Shown: piece by piece, positions 13,566 to 21,320 of the stretch
Layout: the number at the start of each line of letters is the position of its first letter
How positions within the stretch are numbered: the first letter of the stretch is position 1
NCBI GenBank assembly: GCA_027061995.1
Contig: JAMOUT010000059.1
Location: 1-40,455, forward strand
DNA length: 40,455 bases
Direction: 5' to 3'
DNA from: Candidatus Aminicenantota bacterium
GTDB lineage: Bacteria > Acidobacteriota > Aminicenantia > JAMOAD01
Position numbers and translations under genes: made by a program
The notes under the pieces: model-generated
What the model was told of the DNA's origin: nothing
The model's input: only the letters and a program-made list of their open reading frames with translations
Database searches by the model: none

Positions 13566-13898
13566 TTAATTCCTTCTCTGTTTTATCCACTCCGCAACAG
13601 CTTCATCAACAGTTTTCGCTTTTGTAAGAAAAGTTTCTATATTCAACTCTGTTACAAGTTTTTTTCTTGATTCCTCACCCATTCTTTTTGCAACAAAAAC
13701 CTTGCAATCATCAAGAAATTTTATAATAAGACGGGGGTCATCATGATGCTGACCTTTTGAATAGGGATTTACCCTTTTCTCAATCAGATTTCCCTCATCA
13801 TCATATATAAAATAATAGGGAGATATTCCAAAGTGCCCGACCCATAAACTCTTTTCATCTTTACCGACTCCTACGGCAATATACTTTCTCTCACTCAT
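13566..13898 (-). CDS. NifX/NafY-fold (dinitrogenase Fe-Mo cofactor family) protein
   Basis: A 110-residue single-domain protein of the PF02579 family, whose members bind iron-molybdenum cofactor precursors or, in orange proteins, a Mo-Cu cluster. The family pattern is visible as GVGKDEKSLWVGHFGISPYY followed by FIYDDEG, then NPYSKGQHHDD and a closing TVDEAVAEWI helix. The HH pair and a single cysteine (DDCKVFVAKRMG) are candidate metal ligands. It is the last gene of the ORP-like operon; GGAGG precedes its start, which overlaps the stop of the DUF59 gene (TAATG). No nifHDK genes are present, so a nitrogenase role is unlikely. Confidence 0.82.
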   Translation of the reverse strand: MSERKYIAVGVGKDEKSLWVGHFGISPYYFIYDDEGNLIEKRVNPYSKGQHHDDPRLIIKFLDDCKVFVAKRMGEESRKKLVTELNIETFLTKAKTVDEAVAEWIKQRRN

Positions 13899-14212
13899 TA
13901 ATTTTCCTCCTTTTCTTTTTCATCAAGTTGTTTAAGATACTCCATCGCTTGTTTTGCATAAACAAAATCAATAACTTCCATATCAACTTTTTTCACCCCT
14001 TCAACTTTTACTATAGCTTGCTTTATCATAAGAGCAAGTTGAATTCCTATGGGACAAATAAAAGCTGTAGGCTTAAAAACAAGGGAAACTTCTCCTGTTT
14101 TTTCATCAGCTTTCAAATCACGAACAAGCTTCAAAGACACGACATCCTGTCTTAATTCGGGATCATAAACCTGTTTAAGTTCATTTATTATTCTCTCTTC
14201 CAAATTATTCAT
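13898..14212 (-). CDS. MIP18/DUF59-family Fe-S assembly protein
   Basis: A 104-residue protein of the SufT/PaaD/MIP18 (DUF59) family, which helps deliver or mature Fe-S clusters. It has the usual start LEERIINELKQVYDPELRQD followed by VVSLKLVRDLKAD, then a beta segment and TAFICPIGIQLALMIKQAI with one conserved cysteine. The more common variant carries DPE and a TxxxCP motif; here the form is TAFICP, which fits. It overlaps the upstream ATPase by four bases (ATGA) and the downstream NifX-like gene by one, so the partners are clearly co-translated. A role in loading clusters onto the two ferredoxin-ATPases is an inference from position. Confidence 0.85.
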   Translation of the reverse strand: MNNLEERIINELKQVYDPELRQDVVSLKLVRDLKADEKTGEVSLVFKPTAFICPIGIQLALMIKQAIVKVEGVKKVDMEVIDFVYAKQAMEYLKQLDEKEKEEN

Positions 14213-15093
14213 TTTAATCCCTCTAATATTTTTTTAAACATCTTATCAAAAATATCTCTTAATTCCGGGCATCCGTCAGTTGTAAATTTCAGATCCACCA
14301 ATGAATCAACAACACACCTTGAAAAAGGGATTTCACCTATCACCGGAATATCTCTTTTATTGGCATAATCTTTTATTGATTGAGTGTTTTTTTCATTTAA
14401 AGTGGCTTTATTAATTATTATCCCTACGGGAACATTAAAATGTTTTGCGGTTGCTATAGCTCTCTCCATATCATGAATAGCCGAAAGAGTTGGTTCGGCG
14501 GCTATAATAGCATAACTTGCCCCGGACAGAGAGGATGTTACAGGGCAACCTATCCCCGGAGGGCCGTCAACAACGATTAACGGGATATCATTTTCATCGG
14601 TTATAAGATGAGCTTGATGTTTAACCATTGTAACAAGATTTCCCGAGTTTTCAGCTCCCGGATAAAGTTTTGCATGAACCATCTTACCGGAATTCGTATC
14701 CGATACATACCATTCTCCTACTGTCTGAGGTATCATATCAATCGCATCAACAGGGCAAACAAGTTGACAAAGGCCGCACCCGTCACATCTGAAAGGATTG
14801 ACTATATATTCCGAATTAATAATGTCTATAGCTTCAAATCTGCAATACTGCCTGCAAAGATCACATGAAGTGCATGCGTCATTTCTTATCTCTGCAATAG
14901 ATTTCCCGATAAAACTCTCTTTTTTAAGTATTCTCGGAGCAAGAAGAATATGCATATCAGCCGCATCAACATCAGCATCGGCAATAACAAATTCATATCC
15001 GTTTTTATAAAGCCAATTAACGAACGATGATGTTATGGTTGTTTTACCTGTTCCCCCTTTTCCACTTATAAACACTATCTCTTTTGCTCTCAT
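14209..15093 (-). CDS. MinD/ParA-type ATPase with inserted 2[4Fe-4S] ferredoxin domain (ORP-type)
   Basis: A 294-residue deviant-Walker-A ATPase: SGKGGTGKTT at 10-19, DADVDAADMH after the Walker region, and VVDGPPGIGCPV as Walker B/switch. Between the first and second parts of the ATPase sits a ferredoxin insert with Cys 74, 77, 80, 84 and 103, 106, 109, 113, enough for two [4Fe-4S] clusters. This architecture is typical of the ATPases in the Desulfovibrio orange-protein operon and of many anaerobic archaea and bacteria. It resembles its neighbour (15090-15923) in layout but not closely in sequence, so the two may form a heterodimer. Four-base overlaps join it to both neighbours. Confidence 0.9.
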   Translation of the reverse strand: MRAKEIVFISGKGGTGKTTITSSFVNWLYKNGYEFVIADADVDAADMHILLAPRILKKESFIGKSIAEIRNDACTSCDLCRQYCRFEAIDIINSEYIVNPFRCDGCGLCQLVCPVDAIDMIPQTVGEWYVSDTNSGKMVHAKLYPGAENSGNLVTMVKHQAHLITDENDIPLIVVDGPPGIGCPVTSSLSGASYAIIAAEPTLSAIHDMERAIATAKHFNVPVGIIINKATLNEKNTQSIKDYANKRDIPVIGEIPFSRCVVDSLVDLKFTTDGCPELRDIFDKMFKKILEGLK

Positions 15094-15923
15094 TTCAGCC
15101 TCCTTTCGATTTTCTGATAAAGCTCTTTCATCCCTTGCTCAAATCTCGCAAAAGGAAGTTCCCCTTTAGAATATCCTTTTGCTATCTCTTCCTCAAAAGG
15201 TATTCTGTAGATTATCTCTATGTTTTCTTTTTTCGCATACTCTTCCAAGCTCGTATTACCCTCTTTATACTTATTTTCAACAATGGAAAAAGGCTTACCG
15301 AGATCTCGAACAAGTTCCACTGTCAGAGAAAGATCATGTATTCCGAAAGGTGTTGGTTCGCTTACAAGCAAAACATAATCAACATCCCTTAGAACCTCCA
15401 CAACAGGACATGAAGTTCCCGGAGGAGCATCTATTATAACCTTTTCATCATCTTTAATCTCTCTTTTTACTGCACTGATTAATGGCACAGCCGTAGGCTC
15501 TCCGAGATTAAGCAACCCTCCTAGAAACCTGACATCTCCGGCTTTTCCCTTTCTTATAATACCCTTTTTTCTCGGAACTTCAACAAGAGCCCCCTTTTCA
15601 GGACAAACATAAGAACAAATTCCGCATGAATGACAAAGTTCGGGGAAAAAAAGCCACTTTTTTGTCGGTTTTATAATAACAAGAGCTTTATAAGGACATT
15701 CATCAGCGCAAATTCCGCAAAAGGTGCATTTATCATCTTTTATCTCGGGAACAAGTTCCGAAAAATCTTTTTCCTCCGTTATCTCTGGTTTTAAAAAAAA
15801 ATGACCGTTCGGTTCTTCCACATCAGTGTCAACATATAATGCAGGTCTGTTTGCATAAGCAAAGAGGGTTGTAAAGGTTGTTTTACCTGTCCCCCCTTTT
15901 CCCGATGCTATCGCTATTTTCAT
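15090..15923 (-). CDS. MinD/ParA-type ATPase with inserted 2[4Fe-4S] ferredoxin domain (second copy)
   Basis: A 277-residue paralogue of the downstream ATPase. The P-loop ASGKGGTGKTT is at 6-16; the ferredoxin insert has Cys 66, 69, 72, 76 and 97, 100, 103, 107; VIIDAPPGTSCPV is the Walker B/switch region, and its CP is the motif in Mrp/NBP35-like ATPases. The role is probably ATP-driven insertion or transfer of a metal cluster into the NifX-fold proteins encoded around it, by analogy with Mrp/ApbC scaffolds. That role is inferred. It overlaps the downstream ATPase by four bases and lies ten bases after the preceding NifX-like gene. Confidence 0.9.
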   Translation of the reverse strand: MKIAIASGKGGTGKTTFTTLFAYANRPALYVDTDVEEPNGHFFLKPEITEEKDFSELVPEIKDDKCTFCGICADECPYKALVIIKPTKKWLFFPELCHSCGICSYVCPEKGALVEVPRKKGIIRKGKAGDVRFLGGLLNLGEPTAVPLISAVKREIKDDEKVIIDAPPGTSCPVVEVLRDVDYVLLVSEPTPFGIHDLSLTVELVRDLGKPFSIVENKYKEGNTSLEEYAKKENIEIIYRIPFEEEIAKGYSKGELPFARFEQGMKELYQKIERRLK

Positions 15924-15932
15924 GATTTACCT

Positions 15933-16319
15933 CTATTCATTATGATGAGGAAATATTTTATCAGCTTGTTCATGAGATGTTGCCGACATAACCTCTTTTA
16001 ATTTTCCATTAAGATAATTTTTTATCGCTTCTTCTATTGTCATATCCTCATCAGCTTTATACATTTTTATATCACCCTCTTTTAATACTCTATGAGCATT
16101 AGGACCGAAATTAGTTGATATTGCAACCGTAGAACCTGTTTTAATAACAGTTTGGGCTAAAGAGATTCCTACGGATGATTGCCCCGCTTTATAAGGATTT
16201 TCTTTTGCTTCAAACTCTTTTGTTTCAGTATCATAAATTATAAAATAATCACACCTTCCGAATTTAGGATCTACCTTACTTTTTAAAGAATTACCCGTTG
16301 AAGTTATAAATATTTTCAT
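15933..16319 (-). CDS. NifX/NafY-fold protein with His-rich C-terminus
   Basis: A 128-residue PF02579 protein. The core is seen in KVDPKFGRCDYFIIYDTETK, NPYKAGQSSVGISLAQTVI, then ISTNFGPNAHRVL and a closing MTIEEAIKNYLNGKL helix. The GR-C pair in FGRCDYF and the His in NAHRVL are candidate metal ligands, and the tail ends KIFPHHNE, a possible metal-binding end. GGAGAG lies ahead of the ATG, and an extended -10 (16342-16350) upstream suggests a second promoter. The gap of 116 bases to the preceding gene holds a nested hairpin, so this gene may start a sub-operon. Confidence 0.83.
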   Translation of the reverse strand: MKIFITSTGNSLKSKVDPKFGRCDYFIIYDTETKEFEAKENPYKAGQSSVGISLAQTVIKTGSTVAISTNFGPNAHRVLKEGDIKMYKADEDMTIEEAIKNYLNGKLKEVMSATSHEQADKIFPHHNE

Positions 16320-16341
16320 TTTTTTCTCTCCTTTTTATACT

Positions 16342-16350
16342 ATTTTATCA
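16342..16350 (-). promoter_or_regulatory. Possible internal promoter (extended -10) in the ORP-like operon
   Basis: TGATAAAAT lies on the minus strand 22 bases before the gene ending at 15933, with GGAGAG between. The -35 region is poor. It would let the ATPase half of the operon be expressed without sigma-54. Confidence 0.35.
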
Positions 16351-16410
16351 CATCCCATAATAATTAACTCCTCCCCAAATTAATGGGGAGGAGTTATTCT
16401 TAAGGGATGT
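16350..16410. repeat. Nested inverted repeat between two ORP-like genes
   Basis: An inner perfect stem AACTCCTCCCC/GGGGAGGAGTT (16366-16376 with 16385-16395, 8-base loop) sits inside outer arms ACATCCC/GGGATGT (16350-16356 with 16404-16410). It is too strong to be chance. With no long T run after it on the minus strand, it is more likely an mRNA stability or attenuation element than a simple terminator. Confidence 0.7.
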
Positions 16411-16435
16411 TTATGAAAAAAACTCTGTTTTTCTA

Positions 16436-16987
16436 TTACCAGCCGCCTCTGCCAAATCCGCCGCCACGGCCTCTTCCCATTCCACCACCGCGACCGAATC
16501 CGCCTCCACGGCCTCTTCCCATTCCACCGCCACGACCAAATCCGCCGCCTCTGCCGAATCCGCCGCCAAAACCCGAACCAAATCCGCCTCCCATTCCTGT
16601 TCCGCCAAAACCACCTGCGGGCGGATAAGGGGGTTGCTGTGTGGGATTTTGAACCGCTTCCGAAAGCTGACCTTGTGAAGCCATTTTAAAAGCCTCGGCT
16701 ACATTCGTTCCTTCCGGTGCCGAAACCATCTGAATACCGGCACTTGAAAGAACCGAAGAAGCATTAGGACCAAATGCTCCGGATACAACAATTCCCACTC
16801 CTTGGGATGCAACAAATTGAGCCGCCGCTATTCCCGCTCCTGATGGTGATGCAGCATTAGGGTTTGGTAAAATTTGAACCGCATCAGGATTATTTGTGTC
16901 AAAAATCACATAAAACGGAGCTCTTCCGAATCTCGGATCAATAGGACCATTCAAATCTTCAGAGCTTGCTGTTACTAATATTTTCAT
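16436..16987 (-). CDS. NifX/NafY-fold protein with Gly/Arg/Phe repeat tail
   Basis: A 183-residue protein. Residues 1 to about 115 form a PF02579 domain: ILVTASSEDLNGPIDPRFGR, APFYVIFD, then GIAAAQFVASQGVGIVVSG, AFGPNASSVL and GTNVAEAFKMA. After a PPYPPAG linker the rest is low complexity, made of G, R, F and M in GGGFGRGGGMGRGR units. The DNA of the tail is a 42-bp tandem repeat (16452-16550). The tail resembles RGG/FG-rich segments, but its role is unknown. GGAGG within the end of the preceding gene serves as ribosome site (ATGA overlap). Confidence 0.85.
   Translation of the reverse strand: MKILVTASSEDLNGPIDPRFGRAPFYVIFDTNNPDAVQILPNPNAASPSGAGIAAAQFVASQGVGIVVSGAFGPNASSVLSSAGIQMVSAPEGTNVAEAFKMASQGQLSEAVQNPTQQPPYPPAGGFGGTGMGGGFGSGFGGGFGRGGGFGRGGGMGRGRGGGFGRGGGMGRGRGGGFGRGGW
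16452..16550. repeat. 42-bp tandem repeat encoding the Gly/Arg tail
   Basis: Two full units (16452-16493 and 16494-16535) and a partial third match with only a few changes. Each encodes 14 residues of glycine, arginine, phenylalanine and methionine. Copy number is likely to vary between strains. Confidence 0.8.
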
Positions 16988-17613
16988 TTTTCCTCCTTGT
17001 TATTTTTTTCTAATTCATTCAACCTTTTTTTATAAATATCAAGTTGATTTTCAAGTTGTTCAACCATATTTTTTAAAAACTCTTTCTCATTATAAATATT
17101 TGATTGCAGGGGAAACATTGGAAATCCCGGATTATAATATCCTCTATTCCATCCCCAACCTCTTCCGAAACCTTTTCCCCAACCGAAACCTCCGAAAAAA
17201 CCACTTGTTCCTACAAAAGGATTAAAAGTTTGACGACTCATTCCATAATTGTTTCCGTATTGGAAATTCCCTTTCACAGTTTGATTTGAATAATCTCCCC
17301 TTTCAATCTTTTCCACCGCATCTTTAACACTTATTCCCGTGGTTTCAACAAACATTTTAATTCCCGATGAATTTAAAATCATCGAAGAGTTAGGACCAAA
17401 AGTCCCTGATATCACGGCTTGAACCCCTTTCTCAATCACAAGTCGGGCTGCTGAAATACCCGCTCCCGAAGGTGTATTTACAAAAGGGTTTTGAACAATC
17501 TCCGCATTATCCGTATCTTCCGAATCCAAAATTATTAAAAACGGAGCTCTCGCAAACCTCATATCAACAGGAGAATTTAAATCTCCTGAGGATGCTGTTA
17601 CAAGAACTTTCAT
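16984..17613 (-). CDS. NifX/NafY-fold protein with FG/GW linker and C-terminal coiled coil
   Basis: A 209-residue protein. Residues 1 to about 110 form a PF02579 domain (VLVTASSGDLNSPVDMRFAR, APFLIILDSED, GTFGPNSSMIL, ISVKDAVEKI). A Gly/Phe/Trp-rich linker from about 125 to 160 follows (GFGWGKGFGRGWGWNRG). The C-terminus from about 168 is a heptad-like helix (EFLKNMVEQLENQLDIYKKR, then LNELEKNNKEEK), probably a coiled coil for oligomerisation, as in DUF5320-type proteins next to such clusters. GGAG precedes the ATG inside the preceding gene. It looks like a fusion of the NifX fold and a DUF5320-like end. Confidence 0.83.
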   Translation of the reverse strand: MKVLVTASSGDLNSPVDMRFARAPFLIILDSEDTDNAEIVQNPFVNTPSGAGISAARLVIEKGVQAVISGTFGPNSSMILNSSGIKMFVETTGISVKDAVEKIERGDYSNQTVKGNFQYGNNYGMSRQTFNPFVGTSGFFGGFGWGKGFGRGWGWNRGYYNPGFPMFPLQSNIYNEKEFLKNMVEQLENQLDIYKKRLNELEKNNKEEK

Positions 17614-17900
17614 TTTTTCTCCTCCTTGGGCTCATTTTGAACAGGGGTATCATACTGCATAGGATATCCGACTCCGGTATAAGGAATGGTATTTACAGGG
17701 TAATAACCTTGATTCATCCATCTCCACCCTCTCGGAAGACCGGACCAAGGACAGTATCCCATTGTTGCGCCATAACCACGGCCTCTTCCGATTCCAAAAC
17801 CTCTTCCTCTGCCAAAGCCTCTTCCCCTTCCGAAACCTTTTCCTCTGCCTAAACCAAAACCTCCTAAACCATAATAATAAGGATTCATATAGTTAAACAT
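17610..17900 (-). CDS. Gly/Arg-rich DUF5320-like protein
   Basis: A 96-residue protein dominated in its first half by GFGRGR-type hexamers (about 15-45), then GYCPWSGLPRGWRW and a Pro/Tyr-rich end. The combination of a GRGRG segment with an aromatic-GLP-GW motif resembles DUF5320 proteins, which are commonly encoded beside NifX/ferredoxin-MinD clusters and have no known function. A single cysteine is present. AAAAGGAGG precedes the ATG. The stop overlaps the next start (ATGA). There is no NifX domain, so it is an accessory factor of the operon, possibly a scaffold. Confidence 0.75.
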   Translation of the reverse strand: MFNYMNPYYYGLGGFGLGRGKGFGRGRGFGRGRGFGIGRGRGYGATMGYCPWSGLPRGWRWMNQGYYPVNTIPYTGVGYPMQYDTPVQNEPKEEKK

Positions 17901-17918
17901 ATCACACCTCCTTTTTAT

Positions 17919-18047
17919 TTATAATTTTGAGATTAGATTTTCAGCTGTTTTTATTTCTATAAATCCACCACTCTCTATCACTATCTCTTTTTTACCTTTT
18001 AAAACAAAATTATCCTTAATATTAAAATCACAATGTTTATTTCCCAT
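17919..18047 (-). CDS. Small 42-residue protein of the ORP-like operon
   Basis: On the minus strand an ATG at 18047-18045 opens 42 codons to a TAA at 17921-17919. The protein begins MGNKHCDFNIKDN, continues with a hydrophobic/charged alternation (KKEIVIESGGFIEIKT) and ends AENLISKL. GGGGG lies four bases upstream, and the ATG overlaps the 3' end of the first operon gene by 11 bases, a typical coupled arrangement. The next gene follows after 18 bases with its own GGAGG. I recognise no family. The residues form a plausible small beta fold with one Cys and one His. The coupling makes it likely real. Confidence 0.6.
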   Translation of the reverse strand: MGNKHCDFNIKDNFVLKGKKEIVIESGGFIEIKTAENLISKL

Positions 18048-18480
18048 ATTTTCCCCCTTTATTGAATCGTTTTCTGTTTTTTCCGAATCCACTTTTATTT
18101 CCGAACCCTCTTCTCAATCCTTTGCCCGTGTTGCCAAACCCTCTTCCTTTACCTTGACCGAATAAAGTAAAAATCGGAGAAAGTTTATTTTCAACAAACA
18201 TCATAGCCGCGGTATCAGGTTCCATAAAACCTCCGTTTATTATCTCTATCCCGTTTATATAGATATTTCTTAAAAAACCTCTCGGACCACCGCCGCATAT
18301 AACAACATCAACATTCTCTTCCTTCAATAATCCAACTATTTCAAGCGAATAATCAAGCAAAAGATTTACCGTTTTTTTATCCGTTATTTTCCCATTGTCC
18401 ATATCATAAATTACAAGTTTCTCCGAAAAATCCAATCTCGGAGCAACAATATTTTTAAAAACCGCAACCGCTACTTTCAT
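18037..18480 (-). CDS. NifX/NafY-fold protein, first gene of the ORP-like operon
   Basis: The protein has 147 residues from the ATG at 18480. Residues 1 to about 105 form the PF02579 fold: MKVAVAVFKNIVAPRLDFSE, LVIYDMDNGKI, VDVVICGGGPRGFLRNIYING. The end is basic and Gly/Phe-rich (GKGRGFGNTGKGLRRGFG, then KSGFGKNRKRF). The cysteine in VVICGGGPRG is a candidate metal ligand. In-frame ATG (18489) and TTG (18495) starts lie upstream, but the sigma-54 promoter at 18491-18506 predicts transcription from about 18480, so those codons would not be in the mRNA. The gene then has a leaderless message and a clean family-type N-terminus. Confidence 0.83.
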   Translation of the reverse strand: MKVAVAVFKNIVAPRLDFSEKLVIYDMDNGKITDKKTVNLLLDYSLEIVGLLKEENVDVVICGGGPRGFLRNIYINGIEIINGGFMEPDTAAMMFVENKLSPIFTLFGQGKGRGFGNTGKGLRRGFGNKSGFGKNRKRFNKGGKYGK

Positions 18481-18490
18481 ACTTTTCATA

Positions 18491-18506
18491 AGCAATTTTC
18501 ATGCCA
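18491..18506 (-). promoter_or_regulatory. Full-consensus sigma-54 (-24/-12) promoter of the ORP-like operon
   Basis: The minus strand reads TGGCATGAAAATTGCT, which fits every position of the sigma-54 consensus TGGCAYRNNNNTTGCW. The GC of the -12 element is at 18493-18492, giving a start near 18480, the A of the first gene's ATG. A divergent sigma-54 activator gene begins 139 bp beyond the promoter, which strongly supports this call. Confidence 0.9.
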
Positions 18507-18558
18507 TTGGAGAAAATATAATAAACACAATAATTCTAACAATCTCTTTCTTTCCTTT

Positions 18559-18619
18559 AAGTTGCATTTTGCATCTTATTGTTTCTTTATAATTAACCTA
18601 ACGCATCATCTTGCAACTT
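18559..18619. promoter_or_regulatory. Possible upstream activator site (inverted repeat)
   Basis: AAGTTGCA (18559-18566) and TGCAACTT (18612-18619) are perfect inverted copies 45 bases apart. Their centre lies about 109 bp upstream of the sigma-54 transcription start, the usual place for enhancer-type activator binding. The right arm overlaps the -35 box of the activator's own promoter. Confidence 0.45.
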
Positions 18620-18639
18620 TTTACAACAAATGATATAAT
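18611..18639 (+). promoter_or_regulatory. Sigma-70 promoter of the sigma-54 activator gene
   Basis: TTGCAA (18611-18616), 17-bp spacer, TATAAT (18634-18639). The predicted start is about 18646, on the ATG at 18645, so the transcript is probably leaderless; no ribosome site is present. Confidence 0.65.
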
Positions 18640-18644
18640 AATAT

Positions 18645-19928
18645 ATGGAAAACAATAATTATCTCCAAATAATAGATTATCTTTTTGAAGGAATTTTTAT
18701 AATAGATAATAATTTTACAATAGTTGGCATAAATAAAGCCGCATCCGAGATTACGGGATATACGAAAAAAGAAGCGGAGGGAAAACGCTGTTATGAGATA
18801 TTAAAAACAGATATTTGCAGAATAGATTGTCCCATCAAAAAACTGAAACAGGGAAAATCTGCGGATGAACGGATTATAAACATAATTACAAAAAAGAATG
18901 AGGAGAAACATATAAAATTAAAGATTTTCCCTTTTAATAATAATTGGATTGAGATTTTTCAGGATGTTACAAGAGAGGTAGAGCTCGAAAAAAGAATAAA
19001 CAAGAGATATATAATAGATGACATTATAACTTCCGATGAAAAACTTTTTGACCTTTTATCCGCTCTTCCCAAGATTGCTCTCAGTGATGTATCAGTTCTC
19101 ATAGAGGGGGAAAGCGGAGTCGGTAAAGAGGTATTTGCAACAGCTTTAAAGAATCTCAGTAAAAGGAAAGATCAACCCTTTGTCAAGATTAATTGCGCCG
19201 CCCTACCGGATACCCTTCTTGAATCAGAACTTTTCGGATATAAAAGAGGTGCTTTTACGGATGCCAAGAAAGATAAACCGGGACTGTTCATGCAGGCTCA
19301 CAAAGGGACTCTCTTTCTTGATGAGATAGGTGATATGAGCTTATCTCTTCAAGCAAAACTTCTAAGAGCCGTTGAGACCGGAGAGATTGTTCCCCTCGGA
19401 GGGATTGAATCGGAAAAAGTGGATGTCAGAATAATTGCGGCTACAAACAAAGACCTTTCGGTAGAAGTTAAAAAAGGAAAATTCAGGGAAGATCTTTTCT
19501 ATAGATTAAATGTTGTTAATATTAAAATTCCACCCTTAAGAAACAGGAAAAAGGATATCCCTCTTTTTATCGATTATTTTATAAATAAATTTAATATAGT
19601 TTATCGGAAAGATATTAAAGGGATTACCAAAAACGGACTGAATATCTTATTAAATTATGATTTTCCGGGTAATATAAGAGAACTTAAAAATATTATCGAA
19701 CATGCCTTTGTTTTTTGTGATAAGGATTTTATTGATACTGATGATTTACCAGATTACCTGAAAAACATTAAAGAGGAAAATACAGAAAAACCCCATCCCT
19801 TCAATGAAAAAGAGAGAATAATAGAGGCTCTTGAAATTACAAAATGGAATAAGAAAAAAGCGGCGGAATTATTAGAGATAGACAGGACAACACTTTGGCG
19901 TAAAATGAAAAAATACGGTTTATTATAA
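18645..19928 (+). CDS. PAS-domain sigma-54-dependent transcriptional activator
   Basis: An NtrC-type activator of 427 residues, likely controlling the divergent ORP-like operon. The N-terminal PAS domain (about 5-105) holds three cysteines at 49, 58 and 62 (DICRIDCP), which could sense redox state or bind a cluster. The AAA+ domain has Walker A GESGVGKE at 155-162 and the sigma-54-contacting GAFTDA at 202-207, with LFLDEIGD as Walker B. The C-terminal Fis-type helix-turn-helix is EALEITKWNKKKAAELLEID with RTTLWRKMKKYG. There is no receiver domain, so activity is set by the PAS domain rather than a kinase. It ends 24 bp before the tRNA-Phe gene on the other strand. Confidence 0.95.
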   Translation: MENNNYLQIIDYLFEGIFIIDNNFTIVGINKAASEITGYTKKEAEGKRCYEILKTDICRIDCPIKKLKQGKSADERIINIITKKNEEKHIKLKIFPFNNNWIEIFQDVTREVELEKRINKRYIIDDIITSDEKLFDLLSALPKIALSDVSVLIEGESGVGKEVFATALKNLSKRKDQPFVKINCAALPDTLLESELFGYKRGAFTDAKKDKPGLFMQAHKGTLFLDEIGDMSLSLQAKLLRAVETGEIVPLGGIESEKVDVRIIAATNKDLSVEVKKGKFREDLFYRLNVVNIKIPPLRNRKKDIPLFIDYFINKFNIVYRKDIKGITKNGLNILLNYDFPGNIRELKNIIEHAFVFCDKDFIDTDDLPDYLKNIKEENTEKPHPFNEKERIIEALEITKWNKKKAAELLEIDRTTLWRKMKKYGLL

Positions 19929-20167: not shown

Positions 20168-20195
20168 TATACTTAATTAATATAGGAGGTTTGTG

Positions 20196-20459
20196 ATGGC
20201 ATTAATTATTACCGATGAATGTATCAATTGCGGTGCTTGTGTTTCAGAGTGTCCTAATGAAGCTATTTCCGAGGGAGATGAATACTTTGTAATCGATGCT
20301 TCCAAATGCACGGAATGTATCGGATGGTATGATGAGCCTCAGTGTGTAGAAGTTTGCCCCGTTGATAGTATTGTTCCCGATGAAAATAACAAAGAGACAA
20401 AAGAGCAACTTCTCGAAAAATTCAAAAAACTACACCCTGATAAAGAACCCAAAGTTTGA
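20196..20459 (+). CDS. 2[4Fe-4S] ferredoxin (YfhL/Allochromatium-like)
   Basis: An 87-residue cytoplasmic electron carrier. The first cluster motif is [12 protein letters not shown] near the N-terminus. The second is [18 protein letters not shown], with extra residues between its second and third cysteines, which is the pattern of Allochromatium/YfhL-type ferredoxins; such proteins have very low potentials. The ATG at 20196 is chosen because AGGAGG is six bases away; a GTG one codon earlier is in frame. It sits between the ORP-like locus and an Mrp ATPase, so it may supply electrons for cluster assembly (inferred). Confidence 0.93.
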
Positions 20460-20481
20460 TTTAAATTAATTTAAAAATTCC

Positions 20482-20511
20482 GGGGAGGCTTTGCCTCCCC
20501 TTTATTTATTT
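20482..20511 (+). terminator. Rho-independent terminator between ferredoxin and mrp
   Basis: A perfect 8-bp GC-rich stem GGGGAGGC/GCCTCCCC with a TTT loop (20482-20500) is followed by TTTATTTATTT. It separates the ferredoxin from mrp, or acts as an intercistronic attenuator that lowers mrp expression. Confidence 0.7.
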
Positions 20512-20522
20512 AGGAGGAGATA

Positions 20523-21320
20523 ATGGTTGATAAGCCAAAATTTATTATTGATAAAAAACCTTTAAAAGATGTTAAAAATATCATTGCGATCGGAAGCGGA
20601 AAAGGGGGAGTCGGGAAATCAACGGTTACCGTGAATCTCGCTCTTTCGTTAAAAAACCAAGGACTAAAAGTCGGCCTTCTTGATGCGGATGTTTACGGAC
20701 CTAATGTTCCCATGATGATGGGACTCTCCGGCACCCCTTCAATAACAGAGGATAAAAAAATCATACCTCTCGAAAAAGAGGGAATAAAAATATTATCTGT
20801 TGACTTTTTTGTTCAAGAGGATCAACCGCTTATATGGAGAGGACCTCTTGTCTCAAACCTGATTAATCAATTTGTTAATGATGTTGAATGGGGAGAACTT
20901 GACTATCTTTTAATTGACTTACCGCCGGGAACAGGAGATGTTCAAATCTCTCTTTCACAAAAACTTAAATTAACCGGTGGAATTGTTGTTACAACACCAC
21001 AGAAAGTAGCACAATACGATGTTAAAAAAGCTGTCAACATGTTTAAATCGGTCCAAGTTCCCGTTCTCGGAGTAGTTGAAAATATGTCCCATATTTTATG
21101 CCCCAAATGCGGAGAAAAAATATTCCTCTTTCCCCAAGGCGGAGGAGAAGAATTAAGTAAGATGTTTGACATTGAGCTACTGGGAACATTACCTTTTGAT
21201 CCCCAGGTATCCGCAAACAGTGATGAGGGAAAACCAATCGTCTTGGTATCTCCGGATAATCCCATCTCCAAAACATACAAGGAGATAGCGGAAAATTTAA
21301 CAAAGAAAACTTCAAATTAA
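20523..21320 (+). CDS. mrp: Mrp/ApbC/NBP35-type Fe-S cluster carrier ATPase
   Basis: A 265-residue deviant-Walker-A ATPase that binds and transfers Fe-S clusters. GSGKGGVGKS is at 24-33, the MRP signature DADVYGPNVPMMMG follows, and DLPPGTGDVQ is the switch region. A CPKC pair at 193-196 is the dimer-bridging cluster ligand. It lacks the N-terminal DUF59 domain found in many Mrp proteins; a separate DUF59 protein is encoded in the ORP-like operon at 13898. GGAGGAG lies ahead of the ATG. It is the third ATPase of this superfamily in 7 kb, but the only one without a ferredoxin insert. Confidence 0.94.
   Translation: MVDKPKFIIDKKPLKDVKNIIAIGSGKGGVGKSTVTVNLALSLKNQGLKVGLLDADVYGPNVPMMMGLSGTPSITEDKKIIPLEKEGIKILSVDFFVQEDQPLIWRGPLVSNLINQFVNDVEWGELDYLLIDLPPGTGDVQISLSQKLKLTGGIVVTTPQKVAQYDVKKAVNMFKSVQVPVLGVVENMSHILCPKCGEKIFLFPQGGGEELSKMFDIELLGTLPFDPQVSANSDEGKPIVLVSPDNPISKTYKEIAENLTKKTSN

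Follow-up and report, generated by a model that had tools for sequence, protein, structure and literature searches.

Sequence evidence points to a bacterial, sigma-54-switched, IssA-like variant, apparently built on an ORP-type gene set, in the 40,455-nucleotide stretch of DNA analysed here (the window, contig C59), which belongs to a genome of 2.36 Mb that is 95% complete. We see about an even chance that the locus combines an inducible iron-sulfide store of the IssA/IssX kind with a delivery operon of the ORP type. IssA (PF2025) of Pyrococcus furiosus consists of a 109-aa Di-Nase domain and a 70-aa tail, and stores thioferrate (PMC5524996). IssX is an uncharacterised clade from non-thermophiles with similar tails (Vaccaro et al. 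2017, PMC5524996), and the ORP complex of Desulfovibrio vulgaris is DVU2103-2109 (PMC3897727, PMC6345978). The locus bears on iron and sulfur storage in anaerobes that have no oxygen-driven ferritin chemistry; in the literature found, IssA is the only characterised thioferrate protein.

ORF and domain annotation of the window recovered, at 13566-19928, every gene listed in an earlier note on this DNA. Nine annotated minus-strand genes and a 42-aa ORF, lettered A to J in order of transcription, form two predicted transcription units, with the activator gene opposite the first:

18645-19928, plus strand: REG, one-component sigma-54 activator, PAS-AAA+-HTH_8, with a GAFTDA loop (domain search)
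18560-18625, either strand: candidate activator-binding palindromes GTTGCAAGATGATGC and GATGCAAAATGCAAC (inverted-repeat sequence)
18491-18506, minus strand: predicted sigma-54 promoter TGGCATgaaaaTTGCT of the A-E operon (motif score)
18037-18480, minus strand: A, Di-Nase domain and 44-aa cationic Gly/Lys/Arg/Phe tail, 147 aa, pI 12 (ATG at 18480)
17919-18047, minus strand: B, 42-aa orphan ORF overlapping the end of A
17610-17900, minus strand: C, tail-only protein of 96 aa, high in Gly, Arg and aromatic residues, with no domain (composition)
16984-17613, minus strand: D, Di-Nase domain, Gly/aromatic segment and DUF5320 coiled-coil end (domain search)
16436-16987, minus strand: E, Di-Nase domain (residues 1-113) and 70-aa IssA-like tail (domain search, composition)
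16365-16396, minus strand: terminator- or attenuator-like hairpin with a 13-bp stem, between E and F
16320-16360, minus strand: predicted F-J promoter, sigma-70-like, extended -10 (TGaTAAAAT) (sequence)
15933-16319, minus strand: F, short tail-less Di-Nase protein (Pfam)
15090-15923, minus strand: G, MinD-type ATPase with two [4Fe-4S] motifs and Orp3/Orp4-like architecture (domains)
14209-15093, minus strand: H, second MinD-type ATPase with two [4Fe-4S] motifs (domains)
13898-14212, minus strand: I, DUF59/FeS_assembly_P protein (1.5e-12)
13566-13898, minus strand: J, divergent Di-Nase protein, 110 aa (Pfam)

The five proteins of NifX/NafY fold proposed earlier are all accounted for. Four exceed the Pfam cut-off for Di-Nase (PF02579), at 13566-13898, 15933-16319, 16436-16987 and 16984-17613. 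The fifth, A (annotated as 18037-18495), is under it (22.9 vs 26.3 bits), and is assigned by a match to the Di-Nase region of MrpORP (5.5e-8), as well as by an AlphaFold model that matches solved Di-Nase folds. Three of the five lie in unit 1 and have cationic or glycine/aromatic tails, and two (F and J) in unit 2. The DUF59 protein, the PAS-AAA+-HTH activator and two MinD ATPases, each with a ferredoxin insert of two clusters, are likewise present, and the supposed DUF5320-like protein proved to be a DUF5320 domain (7.2e-10) that forms the C-terminus of D. No counterpart of B was noticed in relatives in an unsystematic look. Counterparts of C occur in genomes of the window's own family (f1) and of a second family, f4, where they carry GRGWGRGW repeats (L050, 9256-9678; L053, 5806-6174).

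The earlier note described one minus-strand cluster under sigma-54 control. Unit 1 (A-E, 18480 to 16436) and unit 2 (F-J, 16319 to 13566) are instead split by the hairpin at 16396-16365 and the promoter before 16319. A single operon is rejected on account of this hairpin, conservation of the promoter before F and separate loci in G001, G003, G004 and f4; terminator, promoter and synteny thus define two units in the sequence. F is preceded by TGTGATAAAATAGTAT in the window and by the near-identical GTGATAAAATACTAT in f4 relatives, in which GTGATAAAATA-TAT also stands ahead of F, while genomes of the genus g2 have TTGACA...TATTAT instead. Sigma-54 control stands for A-E, the only genes that TGGCATgaaaaTTGCT is predicted to serve, and falls for F-J, with its sigma-70-like promoter and no sigma-54 site upstream in the window sequence. 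Since the F-J(I) operon lies at another locus in G001, G003, G004 and f4, A-E and the activator form a separable module; in these genomes A-E is followed by unrelated genes, for example RecJ or an LptA-LptB-rpoN type gene run. The A-E operon of G003 includes a CoA-disulfide-reductase-like flavoprotein gene, whose start coincides with the stop of A.

The repeat tails had been taken for extras of an extended ORP variant. They are present, but they resemble IssA and not ORP, and are the most informative feature of the locus. The IssA tail contains 11 Pro, 15 Gly, 7 cationic and 14 aromatic residues (pI 10.7), and is Pro-rich first and then rich in Gly, aromatic and cationic residues (PMC5524996). 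Compared with this published description, E has a similar division (113 + 70 aa), the same order of regions (Pro-rich, then Gly/Arg/Phe) and a high pI (12). Its tail holds 38 Gly, 8 Arg, 9 aromatic and 5 Pro residues with zero Asp, Glu or Cys, and thus has more Gly and less Pro than that of IssA. This composition is kept in ten sequences (the window and nine orthologs) though the sequence varies, with fractions of 0.52-0.57 for Gly, 0.06-0.12 for Arg+Lys and 0.11-0.19 for aromatic residues, and essentially no acid. In the AlphaFold models of both E and A the domain is of high confidence and the tail is predicted to be disordered (pLDDT about 46-61 in the E tail), and the IssA-like tail architecture is also seen in part in A and D. 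Unlike IssA, the window set is bacterial, is sigma-54-controlled with a dedicated activator, and comprises several tailed paralogues and a tail-only protein.

As in IssA, a cluster-ligating set of cysteines is missing: D and E have none and C has one. This would make ligation hard if A-E were an Fe-S assembly scaffold or repair set that moves individual [4Fe-4S] or [3Fe-4S] clusters, stores no polymer and uses its tails only for docking to the ATPases, and a separate tail-only protein fits polymer wrapping better. We consider such a set unlikely, even with the DUF59 protein and with the company that related clusters keep, which argues for an iron-sulfur role: FUR-family genes stand beside F-J-type clusters in four genomes of family f5, G052 has NifU_N beside its cluster, and G006 has a fusion of NifU with Mrp. 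These associations, together with the flavoprotein gene in the A-E operon of G003, equally speak for the iron-sulfide store. The discrete-cluster proposal also draws on MrpORP, whose Di-Nase domain binds an Fe-S cluster and whose ATPase domain hands clusters on to Orp proteins (PMC6345978).

Gly/Arg-rich tails might also bind nucleic acid or phase-separate in an unrelated stress response, with the Di-Nase domain as a small-molecule sensor. The tails of E and C are RGG-like in composition and in this resemble RNA-binding tails at large. Against this, the genes that lie next to them and recur with them encode iron-sulfur proteins, and tails of the same kind are documented in IssA, which binds thioferrate (PMC5524996); this proposal is very improbable.

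The Di-Nase domains were compared with ORP by structure and by sequence, and the relationship claimed earlier holds in part. Foldseek searches with the models of E or A returned only Di-Nase structures at low E-value, the best match for E being ORP of D. gigas (38% identity). The C-terminal Di-Nase domain of MrpORP (NF041136) is the best NCBIfam match for A, at the value given above, and for F (9.3e-9), but the best phmmer match for the Di-Nase domain of E is MTH1175, so that this domain is roughly as near to ORP as it is to MTH1175. In the tree, D and E are sister paralogues (support 100/96) with F next to them (84/82); the anchors ORP and MTH1175 are left unplaced, and no IssA sequence was among the anchors. 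A decision between ORP and IssA from the Di-Nase domain alone was dropped because the tree and the searches disagree. A further Di-Nase protein of the genome (158 aa; G000:C52:38856-39128, L047) groups with TM1816/PH0822-type proteins.

A single scan of genome contigs gave 12 loci, which only sample the spread across phyla. The activator, A, a small gene, F, G and H stand together in L054 and L092 (same class) and in L061 and L062 (Deltaproteobacteria), a conserved neighbourhood that speaks for the earlier ORP reading. L054 and L092 also encode MrpORP (526.8 and 537.1 bits, cut-off 450), and the small gene of L054 carries a Pfam-confirmed DUF5320. As in the D. vulgaris ORP system, the window has a Di-Nase protein, a sigma-54 promoter (for A-E only) with a cognate activator, and a pair of ATPases that resemble Orp3/Orp4 by domain architecture with two [4Fe-4S] motifs each. 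In the activator the loop reads GAFTDA, as reported for DVU2106, the Desulfovibrio orp activator (PMC4641369). Unlike in D. vulgaris, the ATPases are in a separate, non-sigma-54 unit, and the window has long tails, DUF59, extra Di-Nase proteins and no sign of Mo. It also has no MrpORP: the Mrp protein at 20523-21320 is plain (314.9 bits vs 450) and is without a Di-Nase domain. The match to the ORP system that the earlier note had seen extends to the neighbourhood and the loop, and stops at MrpORP and the control of the ATPases. Without MrpORP in the window, the ORP comparison is good for ancestry, and membership is not proven.

A true ORP system would carry a Mo-Cu or other thiometallate cluster in an Orp3-Orp4-Orp8 complex, perhaps with a part in cell division of the sort proposed for Desulfovibrio, and its tails would be decoration. 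The conserved neighbourhood, MrpORP in L054 and L092, the GAFTDA loop, the fold of E and the presence of MoeA in the window's own genome all speak for it. We find it improbable, as the window is without MrpORP and the ATPase operon, which the sigma-54 promoter does not serve, lies apart from A-E in near relatives. Moreover, ORP of D. gigas is a chain of 120 residues that has no tail of this kind, and in E it is the tail that is conserved; ORP does not explain a Di-Nase domain followed by a 70-aa tail, Pro-rich and then Gly/Arg/Phe, at pI 12. MoeA is also missing from 7 of 7 f4 genomes that carry A-E and F-I (two are listed as 100% complete), which represent one lineage and thus one observation, not seven. 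Its absence from the whole of this module-carrying family argues against a role for Mo: a Mo-Cu cluster in the window proteins is not indicated by the sequences, and Mo is unlikely to be the metal of the locus.

Two further roles were considered and rejected. NifX and NafY, the nitrogenase cofactor chaperones, have the Di-Nase fold in common with the window proteins (Foldseek matches 1p90 and 9ian), but no nitrogenase-type D/K protein (PF00148) was found in the window's genome or in 59 relatives, which rules out a nitrogenase cofactor role and agrees with the earlier remark that nifHDK genes are lacking. Replacement of ferritin by the module has no pattern behind it. No ferritin was found in the window's genome, but ferritin is present in 54 of 60 genomes, most module carriers included.

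REG contains a strongly supported Sigma54_activat domain (4.4e-68), together with PAS and HTH_8 domains. Three PAS cysteines (C49, C58 and C62) are invariant in 14 of 14 aligned activators, a set that could hold an Fe-S cluster or act as a redox switch. Activators of f1 (the window included), f4 and L061 have a GAFTDA loop; those of L054, L056, L062 and L092 have GAFTGA. The promoter TGGCATgaaaaTTGCT scores 28.5 of 29.5 in a simple weight scheme, which 0 of 300 shuffles reach, and is one of five exact TGGCAY-N5-TTGCW sites genome-wide (0 in the reversed control). Among relatives, a sigma-54 site (score >=26) lies at most 60 nt upstream of 12 of 15 activator-adjacent A genes, against a background rate of 0.0025 per 60 nt. 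The candidate palindromes take the form TGMAACA-N3-TGTTKCA in relatives; the best within the window is weak (p about 0.065), and such p-values are circular because the consensus was drawn by eye from the same sequences.

In the model we propose, the three cysteines of the PAS domain would let the activator respond to a redox or iron-sulfur signal; the activator would then bind the upstream palindromes and turn on A-E via the sigma-54 promoter seen in the sequence. In P. furiosus, sulfide induces IssA when iron is ample (PMC5524996). The Di-Nase domains of E, D and A would nucleate an anionic iron-sulfide polymer, probably thioferrate-like, which the disordered cationic/aromatic tails and the tail-only C may wrap and cross-link, so that A-E would store iron sulfide by analogy with Pyrococcus IssA. 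The separately expressed ATPases, DUF59 protein and short Di-Nase proteins of F-J could serve in loading or unloading Fe-S units and in handing these over to target proteins. Near relatives keep the two operons apart, so we only infer that they cooperate. In its fullest form, an inducible thioferrate-type store of anaerobic bacteria, switched by a sigma-54 activator with a three-cysteine PAS sensor, made of several tailed scaffolds and a free-standing tail protein and evolved from the ORP set, the proposal is tentative and somewhat more doubtful than the pairing of store and delivery operon. If true, ORP and IssA would be two outputs of one ancestral iron-sulfur system. A bacterial IssA-like set tied to ORP genes would give both one testable function, iron-sulfide buffering, and its sigma-54 control would supply a defined regulator as a starting point.

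Several smaller observations were made at the locus and in relatives. Just past tRNA-Phe, a 2[4Fe-4S] ferredoxin gene and then the plain Mrp carrier gene lie at 20193-21320 on the plus strand, outside the operon; they are possibly functional partners. Gene A starts about 11-14 nt past the -12 GC with no ribosome-binding site (18506-18478, minus strand), so its mRNA looks leaderless. The same arrangement is seen in L041, L042, L049, L050, L051, L053, L061, L087 and L093, and in L054, L064 and L092 gene A is instead preceded by a leader with a site that resembles AAGGAG or AGGAGG. L038 (G003) and L040 (G004) keep the -24 element TGGCAY before A and have a degenerate -12 GC (TTTAT), which suggests a weakened or changed promoter in the genus. 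The other four exact sigma-54-type sites are on contigs C7, C10, C43 and C54 of the same genome, G000 (L098-L101); two of them are 33-38 bp ahead of a gene, which in L099 is ComEA-like with a helix-hairpin-helix (as read by eye) and in L101 encodes a secreted repeat protein. A damage-control phosphatase (ARMT1/DUF89) follows F-J or ORP-type clusters in L078 (9455-10336, Pfam-confirmed) and, by sequence resemblance, in L079 (7816-8688) and L054 (9149-10246).
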